21,609 nt of DNA. Source: a virus. The stretch spans positions 18,054 to 39,662 of IMG/VR virus record IMGVR_UViG_3300030328_003386, one strand, 5' to 3'. This document shows positions 13,370-19,484 of the stretch, piece after piece. A program made the position numbers and the translations under genes. How positions within the stretch are numbered: the first letter of the stretch is position 1; every line of letters begins with the position of its first letter. Below the pieces are notes generated by a model, which did not search any database, was not told where the DNA came from, and saw nothing but the letters and a program-made list of their open reading frames with translations.

Positions 13370-14119
13370 TTAATCCGTAAATCTATTGTATAAATTTACA
13401 CCTGCTTTAGCTACTTTCACCCATGGATTATCTAAAGTTCGTTCCGATAAAGGAACATCCATTTCATCTGTTTCTGGATTAATGTTAAAGTTTACTTTAG
13501 CACCTTCCCCAGGTCCACTCCCATAATACCTTGCATATACCCGCGCCCTATCTTTTATATTTCCTTCAGGTATATTACTTAATTCTTTTTCTATAGCTAA
13601 TTTTTTTTCTTCATCACTTAATCCAGCACTAGCATCATTAAAATCAAAAGTATCTGAAATACCAATAGTTCCATCAGGATTTCTTGTATACCGTGCTTTA
13701 CCTGTTGTATATCGTGCTTGGTAACCAGGATTATTAAGTAATTCTAACTGCTGAGCCATTCCTTCACCATGTTCATTTCCTCCTACAGAATAATCCCCAT
13801 AATCTATATATCCAGAATCCGGAGTATTTCCTTCTCTTTGAGACGCAGTGTGGTATGCTCTAAAATAGGCATCTTTTAATTCAGGACTTAAATCCTCTGT
13901 AGTTAAATTTCTTTTTTGCCCACTTAAATCATTTATTAATCCTCTAACAGGAAGAGGTAAACCCGACCTTCTATCGGTAGCTAAATCTATTACTTTATTT
14001 TTAACGCTTTTTAAACCTCCTATCATTTTACTAACTAAACCTCCTCTAAGATTTGATCCTATACTAATTTGATTTAAAGGAGATACTCTGTTAAAGGGAT
14101 TGTTTTGATTGTAAGGCAT
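13370..14119 (-). CDS. Accessory virion or lysis protein with SPLN motif
   Basis: This 249-residue protein begins MPYNQNNPFNRVSPLNQ, a start resembling that of the 229-residue gene (MGYTQNNPLPR). A basic helix (25-50) leads to LPLPVRGLINDLSGQKRN, an acidic middle with SGYIDYGDYSVGG (102-114), then a possible domain with NPDGTIGISDTFDFND (147-162) and RVYARYYGSGPGEGAKVNFNI (from 193). The DTFDFN segment weakly recalls the D-x-Y-D core of colicin M-type lipid II hydrolases, but the His-Arg pair expected a few residues later is absent. The gene follows the holin-like and small membrane genes, so a lysis role is possible. It overlaps the previous gene by 29 bases. The function is uncertain. Confidence 0.5.
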   Translation of the reverse strand: MPYNQNNPFNRVSPLNQISIGSNLRGGLVSKMIGGLKSVKNKVIDLATDRRSGLPLPVRGLINDLSGQKRNLTTEDLSPELKDAYFRAYHTASQREGNTPDSGYIDYGDYSVGGNEHGEGMAQQLELLNNPGYQARYTTGKARYTRNPDGTIGISDTFDFNDASAGLSDEEKKLAIEKELSNIPEGNIKDRARVYARYYGSGPGEGAKVNFNINPETDEMDVPLSERTLDNPWVKVAKAGVNLYNRFTD

Positions 14120-14792: not shown

Positions 14793-15137
14793 TTATAATG
14801 CTTCGTAATCATCTGTTTTATCGTAGGCTTCTTTTTCCCATGGTAAATCGGGCGCACCTTCTTCCATTTCCTCTCTTGAATAAGTTTTTCCTTTCCAATA
14901 CACATTATCATCATCATAATCTAAGTCACCTCTTTTAATTTGATCAATATGTATTTTTTCGTGTTCAATAACACTGTGTCTTTCTGCTGGATCAGTGAGT
15001 TTATCTGATACTAATATAGTACCATTGCTATTTGCTTTACCTAAAACTCCTTCTTCAAGATCAGCGGCATAAATAGGTGTACCATCTTTTTGAAATGGAG
15101 GATTTATTTTGAATCCACTACTTAATCTTATTTTCAT
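14793..15137 (-). CDS. Small HExxH zinc-metallopeptidase-like protein
   Basis: This 114-residue protein carries H59-E-K-I-H63 in a likely helix (RHSVIEHEKIHIDQIKRGD), the zinc-binding and catalytic motif of zincin peptidases. A possible third ligand is E101 or E103 in LPWEKEAYD about 40 residues later, as in gluzincins. A Gly-rich N-terminal segment and an acidic YWKGKTYSREEMEEG segment flank it. The protein is very short for a peptidase, so it may be a minimal domain or a virion cofactor. It has a 4-base overlap (ATGA) with the 51-residue CGCKKR gene before it and lies 3 bases upstream of the holin-like gene. Cleavage of a virion protein, a host envelope protein or peptidoglycan cross-links are all possible. 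Confidence 0.55.
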   Translation of the reverse strand: MKIRLSSGFKINPPFQKDGTPIYAADLEEGVLGKANSNGTILVSDKLTDPAERHSVIEHEKIHIDQIKRGDLDYDDDNVYWKGKTYSREEMEEGAPDLPWEKEAYDKTDDYEAL

Positions 15138-15758: not shown

Positions 15759-16400
15759 TTAATTTCCTCTAGGTTTTCCCATGATACTTTCATAAATTGC
15801 GTCAAGCTTCTCATCACCTTCTAAGTCATCAAATTTACCCTTGGGTTGTTGACTAGGATCATATTGAGCAAAATTATAGGTGTAATCTATACCAGTATCA
15901 CCTCCTCCAGAATTTCCTCCTCCTCCTTGTTGGATAATATTAGTTGTACCACCACTGGATGTTGATTTTTTACCTCTATTTGTTCTAATATCACTCATAC
16001 CTGATTCAACTCCTTTTTGAGCTTCATCACCTAATAATCCATCATAATCTTTAAATCCATCACCAGCACCTTTTATAAAATCTCCAAATCCAGCACCTGG
16101 ATTATTACTAGCTTTAATACCACCAGCAACAGCTGCACCTACAGCTCCTACCACTTTACCAGTAGCTTCACCTGCTTTTTTAAATGCCTCATGCTCTGCT
16201 CTTACAGCATCACTTGAATCAAAAGCTGTTGAGTATTGATCAGGTGTAAAGTTTACTAAAGGAACACCACCATCATATCTAGCTGGAACCTCTGGTCCAC
16301 TAGTAGAAATATAACTAAAGGGTGATCTATTATTAAACCCTATTTTAAAAGATTTATTTTTTCCTAAAAAATTAGTTCTGAATTTACCTATTGTTTCCAT
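15759..16400 (-). CDS. Accessory protein with Gly/Ala-rich helix
   Basis: This 213-residue protein has a basic N-terminus with NNRSPFSYI (23-31), related to the SP-hydrophobic motif of its neighbours. Next come NFTPDQYSTAFDSSDAVRAE (50-69), a Gly/Ala/Val helix KVVGAVGAAVAGGIKA (82-97) with glycine-zipper spacing, a Gly/Ser-rich linker (149-169) and an acidic C-terminus ending SIMGKPRGN. The glycine-zipper helix could insert into a membrane or form oligomers, as in proteins ejected with phage DNA. That is inference only. It lies 1 base after the 318-residue gene. No family is recognised. Confidence 0.5.
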   Translation of the reverse strand: METIGKFRTNFLGKNKSFKIGFNNRSPFSYISTSGPEVPARYDGGVPLVNFTPDQYSTAFDSSDAVRAEHEAFKKAGEATGKVVGAVGAAVAGGIKASNNPGAGFGDFIKGAGDGFKDYDGLLGDEAQKGVESGMSDIRTNRGKKSTSSGGTTNIIQQGGGGNSGGGDTGIDYTYNFAQYDPSQQPKGKFDDLEGDEKLDAIYESIMGKPRGN

Positions 16401-18052: not shown

Positions 18053-18076
18053 TTTATTTATTTATTTATTTATTTA
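18053..18076. repeat. (TTTA)6 tetranucleotide repeat overlapping a stop codon
   Basis: Six perfect TTTA units span the junction between the 193-residue gene and the 229-residue gene. The last unit contains the stop codon of the upstream gene (18074-18076), and the first ends three bases before the downstream ATG. On the transcript this is an AAAU-repeat leader. Confidence 0.75.
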
Positions 18077-18878: not shown

Positions 18879-19484
18879 TTATAAAGTTATTAATTTTTTT
18901 CTATTTTGAACTTGTGTACCATTTCCAAATATACTCATCGCTGCTTCTTCTGTTGTAGGATTAAAGTTGCTTTGTGTTGCGACATTAGCAGGTGTTGTAT
19001 TATTAGGTGCATTTCCTGTAGCTTGTTCTACACTTCCCATATTTTCACCACCTATAAATGGATCTCCACTAAAAGCATTAGGATTTGTACTAAAATTTCC
19101 TACCGCACTAGTATTATTAGGATCTGTTCCACTTGCTCCAATTCCTGGTCCTGCTCCAACACTACTAGGTCTCATCCAAAATGGTAATCTTGAATTTTGA
19201 TAAGAATTTGATTGATTAGCAACCCATTGAGCGGGGTTTTGCATCATTGGCATAATTCCACCACCAACACCTACTTGGCCCATACTTCCGAAAGAAGGAG
19301 TTAGACCTGACATCATATTAGGAAGCATACCGAAATTTAATGGACTCTTGTCTCTTAAGGCTTGAATTTTTCTTTCATGAAGTTCAATATCCATATCAGT
19401 TCCTTTTTTACCTTTAGCAACTTTTTTCTTGAATCTATCTTCTATTCTGTTAATGCGTTTTTCTATTCTTTGAGATTTACTCAT
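18879..19484 (-). CDS. Low-complexity accessory protein with coiled-coil N-terminus and SPLN motif
   Basis: This 201-residue protein has a strongly charged helical N-terminus (SKSQRIEKRINRIEDRFKKK, to about residue 45) that should form a coiled coil. It is followed by KSPLNFGMLPNMMSGLTPSF (46-65) and then about 130 residues rich in Gly, Asn, Met, Pro, Ser and Thr, ending RKKLITL. The SPLN motif links it to the other accessory genes downstream. The disordered Asn/Gly/Met part resembles internal or cargo-like virion proteins, but this is composition only. The ATG overlaps the previous stop by 4 bases (ATGA). Confidence 0.5.
   Translation of the reverse strand: MSKSQRIEKRINRIEDRFKKKVAKGKKGTDMDIELHERKIQALRDKSPLNFGMLPNMMSGLTPSFGSMGQVGVGGGIMPMMQNPAQWVANQSNSYQNSRLPFWMRPSSVGAGPGIGASGTDPNNTSAVGNFSTNPNAFSGDPFIGGENMGSVEQATGNAPNNTTPANVATQSNFNPTTEEAAMSIFGNGTQVQNRKKLITL

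Follow-up and report, generated by a model that had tools for sequence, protein, structure and literature searches.

A minimal gluzincin-like protein encoded beside the holin-like gene in a clade of marine phages, with a possible role on particle proteins

Introduction

What does a phage do with a 114-residue protein that carries an HExxH motif, when the gene lies directly between a small cysteine-bearing microprotein (CGCKKR) and a holin-like gene? The question is raised by a 21,609-nucleotide stretch of DNA (the window), positions 18,054 to 39,662 of a virus record that is 39,662 bases long. A first-pass annotation made from the sequence alone had read H59-E-K-I-H63 with the downstream E101 and E103 as a gluzincin core, and had suggested either an unusual lysis enzyme or a virion maturation protease. 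We use a combination of homologue searches, residue conservation, predicted structures and comparative gene order to study this protein, here called the zincin, and to weigh the roles that it might have in these phages.

Results

The zincin gene and its conserved residues

The features of the locus are collected in Table 1. The tiny HExxH reading frame between the microprotein and the holin-like gene is present as first described, 114 amino acids long with H59-E-K-I-H63 and a downstream Glu. Its start shares four bases (ATGA, 15134-15137) with the stop of the CGCKKR gene, and 3 bases separate its own stop from the start of the holin-like gene. One scan of viral contigs returned 253 relatives, and so the gene is more than a chance reading frame. 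When the window zincin is set against five relatives, dN is 0.13-0.17 versus a dS of 0.53-0.93 (dN/dS of about 0.15-0.33), and by this comparison of coding sequences the gene is under purifying selection. It is real and strongly conserved.

Table 1. Coordinates of the zincin, its predicted functional positions and selected neighbours in the window
Feature	Position	Strand	Basis
114-aa minimal gluzincin-like protein	14793..15137 (stop codon included)	-	ORF, ATG start, relatives, conservation, dN/dS, models
H59-E60-K-I-H63 codons (HExxH), predicted zinc and catalytic site	14949..14963	-	sequence, invariance, models
E101 codon, candidate third zinc ligand, helix 99-107	14835..14837	-	invariant in alignments
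Y74 codon, possible catalytic Tyr (inference)	14916..14918	-	invariant in 47-row alignment
Unstructured N-terminal segment of the zincin, GFKINPPFQK	15087..15116	-	low pLDDT, tag counts
CGCKKR microprotein, 51 aa	15134..15289	-	4-base overlap with zincin start
Holin-like protein, 151 aa	14334..14789	-	phrog_3427 holin, E 5e-18; GTA_holin_3TM below cut-off
249-aa protein with N-terminal tag MPYNQNNPFNRVSPLN, not core (cluster of 2 loci)	13370..14119	-	ORF, cluster, tag counts
213-aa module protein, SPF-type N-terminal tag	15759..16400	-	ORF, tag counts
SPL-type tagged module protein	18879-19484	-	

Which residues does this conservation protect? We kept the best 80 of the 253 relatives and, together with the window, these gave 59 distinct sequences, in all 59 of which H59, E60, H63, Q66, E101 and E103 are retained; this set had been found partly with patterns over the same motifs. 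Because the scan patterns covered the motifs, we turned to relatives selected through their terminase (window included) as a fairer test. Here HExxH is kept in 32/32 of the rows that cover it and E101 in 35/35, while E103 is kept in 28/35. In a sister clade in which the zincin domain is fused to a longer protein (23 of 31 loci examined), HExxH and E101 are found in every case and E103 in only 3/23. Since E103 is dispensable in both sets, we reject it as a zinc ligand and regard E101 as the candidate for the third. A joint alignment of 47 rows, reaching down to 33% identity, leaves only H59, E60, H63, Y74 and E101 invariant, and no His other than H59 and H63 is invariant or nearly so. The core originally proposed, H59/E60/H63/E101/E103, thus stands for its first four residues and loses the fifth; with E103 dropped, conservation of the core in homologues, a check set beforehand, was passed.

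Predicted fold and superfamily

Two AlphaFold models of the zincin (mean pLDDT 83.1 and 84.9) agree with one another. The predicted layout is a set of strands, a helix spanning residues 50-69 that carries HExxH, three further strands and a helix spanning residues 99-107 that carries E101; both models place E101 on the next helix after that of HExxH, a motif kept in 47/47 rows of the joint alignment. Confidence is low over the first 20 residues, with a mean pLDDT of about 49-54 for residues 1-10 and about 65-66 for residues 11-20.

The leading fold matches are zincin peptidases: IrrE (Z 5.8-5.9), SPRTN (5.4-5.6) and abylysin (5.1-5.2), followed by ArdC and selecase. No relative exceeded Z 5.9 in a second-look comparison of the two models, and a Foldseek search of solved structures gave no match with E below 0.3. 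Since all of these Z values are below 8 and may reflect just a common arrangement, they support membership in the superfamily and not in any close family. Among predicted viral models, eight match with E up to 0.001; the first of these is an uncultured virus protein sharing 46% identity, and SprT-like phage proteins are among them. When the single protein and two profiles were compared by sequence with solved structures, only chance matches came back, and neither Pfam nor NCBIfam assigns the window zincin to a family. Peptidase_M78 does not match the window protein and matches 12/47 rows weakly (E up to 0.1, best 7e-4); DUF6782 is matched weakly by 23/47. Conservation and fold resemblance together support a predicted gluzincin-type core within a minimal protein.

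Phage clade and gene neighbourhood

The terminase of the record matches those of Elemovirus (Flavobacterium), Cellulophaga, Maribacter and Tenacibaculum phages and MW202828; Cellulophaga phage phi38:1 belongs to the Pervagoviridae. On the host side, this is a phage of marine flavobacteria-like hosts, one of the Elemovirus/Pervagoviridae-related podoviruses. Read along the minus strand, the gene order is GroEL, GroES, many small module proteins, the CGCKKR microprotein, the zincin, the holin-like gene, small proteins, the terminase, the portal and capsid-type genes.

How constant is the zincin in this setting? It is present in 34/78 of the loci found through the terminase, many of the others being too short to show the gene, and in 21/23 of those with at least 6 kb upstream of the terminase; it is a near-core gene in one marine Elemovirus/Pervagoviridae-related clade. 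It is also dispensable, because 6 of the 79 tree loci fall inside the same clade and are without it, and a profile search of four named relatives found no zincin. Among 119 zincin loci, many of them near copies, the CGCKKR gene is directly upstream in 57/119 (7 more end at a contig edge), and directly downstream lies the holin cluster in 60/119 or a short TM-like protein (cluster 23) in 16/119. At other loci a short variable gene separates zincin and holin. In the fused clade (L090 and L096-L126) the zincin domain is the N-terminus of proteins of about 315-680 residues, still just before the holin, and the long fusion partner is probably disordered. With the fused protein of L121 as query, no phage record was matched.

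The microprotein occurs more widely than the zincin. Homologues of CGCKKR are found in Nonlabens phages P12024S/L, Microcystis phage Mel-JY01 and MW202828, as a small cysteine-bearing protein across different phages; among the matches listed for the Nonlabens and Microcystis phages, none is a zincin. That the zincin and CGCKKR are bound together, with the microprotein as necessary donor of zinc or as inhibitor, is made less likely by MW202828, which has the microprotein and no zincin. We also note that the same phage locus appears at L082, L083, L086 and L089 in contigs filed under Woesearchaeota, Aliivibrio, Euryarchaeota and Alphaproteobacteria MAGs, which are probably misbinned viral contigs.

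A common N-terminal tag among module proteins

Many proteins encoded between GroES and the terminase, otherwise unrelated, have a common N-terminal tag of the SPL type. The pattern SP[LFIM] falls within the first 60 residues in 33/93 module clusters (shuffled mean 4.0, maximum 10 of 200), compared with 6/147 proteins elsewhere (shuffled mean 3.8); these tag patterns were drawn up with the data already in view. A longer version of the tag, its pattern likewise chosen after the fact, occurs in 14/92 non-zincin clusters (shuffled mean 0.003), and similarity extends beyond residue 45 in one pair only among these 14. The N-terminus of the zincin resembles the tag in part, with SP[LFIYM] in 9/47 rows and a relaxed pattern in 28/47.

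One tagged protein, the 249-residue product listed in Table 1, matches positions 2392-2550 of the 2564 of phrog_7348, annotated as an endolysin (E 4e-8); this annotation may not transfer, because the match is to a C-terminal piece of that family.

One speculative idea is that the tag (about MxYxQxNNPFSRKxSSPLN) directs proteins to the inside or the surface of the particle, and that the zincin is the protease that processes or sorts them. Carried along with the tagged proteins, and in one clade joined to a long partner in the same slot, it would cleave or retain them at the particle. Tagged genes number 42/484 at 26 zincin loci against 7/760 at 53 zincin-less loci, a count that phylogeny confounds and that excludes one conserved MKSPFYFI-type family, to which most of the 33 earlier tags at zincin-less loci belong. 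The six zincin-less loci inside the zincin clade have no tag in 65 genes, an absence that loss of the whole block would explain. The association is weakened by phylogeny, by the exclusion of the MKSPFYFI-type family, by possible block loss and by the 8/26 zincin loci that have no tag at all, and we regard the tag-protease idea as a long shot. If true, it would be the metallo-type counterpart of T4's capsid-targeting sequence with its prohead protease. The common tag of the neighbours gives a directly testable list of candidate substrates.

Discussion

Lysis, regulation or a binding domain

Because the zincin adjoins a holin-like gene, a natural thought is that it passes the neighbouring holin and cuts peptidoglycan peptides or envelope proteins. 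The record itself has no recognised endolysin and ends before the slot in which relatives carry one: after the structural genes come a 3097-residue gene and a 278-residue gene and then the end of the record. The relatives speak against this role. Amidase_2 is found in 5/14 and Peptidase_M15_3 in 4/14 zincin-bearing records (four confirmed by hmmscan), which leaves 5/14, the window's own among them, that are fragments of 27-40 kb. With another recognised hydrolase in 9/14 carriers, the zincin is disfavoured as a cell-wall hydrolase, and the holin is still present at the zincin-less loci L199, L220 and L227. We know of no HExxH gluzincin that serves as a main endolysin. The unusual lysis enzyme of the first-pass annotation is therefore not supported, relatives having ordinary M15 or amidase endolysins elsewhere and keeping the holin without the zincin; we consider a lysis enzyme quite improbable. 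The zincin is probably not the dissolver of the cell wall in these phages, and an accessory role in lysis is possible. The 3097-residue reading frame of the record (L136:913-10203) has no Pfam match below E 0.04. At another locus, a 118-residue protein in the module of the zincin (L258:779-1132) looks by eye like an M15 endolysin.

Could the neighbourhood instead be incidental, and the zincin an intracellular protease of the ImmA/IrrE, SprT or ArdC kind, cutting a host or phage regulator or a DNA-bound protein late in infection for regulation or counter-defence? IrrE/PprI, SPRTN and ArdC are its best fold matches, the weak Peptidase_M78 and DUF6782 matches point the same way, and ImmA/IrrE is the annotation given to a relative in Ochrobactrum phage OC. 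Yet no XRE-type regulator is seen beside the zincin in the window, throughout its clade the zincin keeps its slot, flanked by the microprotein and the holin, and the third conserved His of SprT-type proteins is missing from the family; we judge this role unlikely, while giving it an appreciable chance. The same fold might also serve for binding alone, as a zinc-binding or structural domain without catalytic activity. Fusion to long, disordered-looking proteins in the sister clade and the small structural roles common in the gene module would suit such a domain, but E60, the general-base residue, is invariant, and a role in holding zinc would not need it, so we think a non-catalytic domain very improbable.

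A protease acting on particle proteins

The explanation that we prefer, tentatively and at somewhat less than an even chance, is that the zincin belongs to the virion-gene module as a minimal gluzincin that acts on particle proteins or is packaged with them; its zinc binding and peptidase activity, like its substrate and its place in the virion, are inferred here. In this model H59, H63 and E101 would coordinate a single zinc, E60 would serve as the general base, and Y74 may help to stabilise the transition state. The protein would work in the cytoplasm on proteins of its own module, as an assembly-stage processing enzyme, or would be packaged with them as a virion-borne protease. We favour this reading because of the position of the gene in the particle module, where it runs in the same direction as the particle-type protein genes between GroES and terminase, because of its near-core status and because of the fusion to a long partner. 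Other observations weigh against it. Prohead proteases are usually encoded between the portal and the major capsid protein, but by gene order the zincin lies upstream of the terminase; six loci inside the clade are without it; and the four named relatives that lack the zincin show no S78 prohead protease either. A search for this S78 family alone found none in 13 records (zincin carriers and the four relatives), which removes S78 as a competitor in the same records. The maturation protease that had been suggested is a possible reading of the zincin.

Proteases that act on phage particle proteins are as a rule of serine types, and if the zincin acts on such proteins it would be a metallo-type protease in their role. 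Whatever its substrate, the five invariant residues define a widespread unnamed family of predicted phage metallopeptidases of about 100 residues, with 253 relatives in viral contigs from one scan.

Comparison with known systems

In the open-licence literature we recognised no paper describing the zincin family. The closest described sequences are phage proteins of unknown function: the window zincin has significant profile matches to phrog_10499 (E 9.7e-7) and phrog_16532 (E 1.3e-7), and the proteins of phages Melnitz, XacN1 (ORF071) and OC (p413) match these families. These proteins have in common with the window zincin an HExxH followed by LPWExxA. Unlike them, the window family carries a segment found in it alone among these, YDxxxVYWKGK, and always occupies the slot before the holin; the Melnitz, XacN1 and OC genes belong to T4-like or jumbo phages and lie in unrelated surroundings, outside virion, structural or holin modules. 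With distant relatives in such settings, the domain has no general tie to virions. Among the cultured phage records searched, none carries a close relative of the zincin.

In size the zincin is like the minigluzincins abylysin (4jiu), jannalysin (4jix) and selecase (4qhf), which have about 105 residues and whose ligand set is HExxH plus Glu. Abylysin aligns with the zincin model over 71 residues (Z 5.2, rmsd 2.9), with a Foldseek E above 0.3. The minigluzincins differ in being archaeal cellular proteins with 12-20% identity in the structural alignments and no sequence match. IrrE/PprI and ImmA (Peptidase_M78) are the best fold matches; the phage zincin is half their size, with no fused or adjacent DNA-binding regulator seen. 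SprT, SPRTN and Wss1 are HExxH zincins too, and in SprT and SPRTN the third zinc ligand is a His, a feature that the window family lacks.

A parallel in proposed function is in group 1 jumbo phages, for whose zincin Iyer and colleagues are reportedly the authors of a virion-maturation proposal. These phages have a different, conserved zincin-like metallopeptidase for which the authors proposed a role in virion maturation (PMC7824862). They are different phages from those studied here, and the likeness to the window zincin is one of description; the idea of virion processing by a zincin has in them a precedent, as a proposal.
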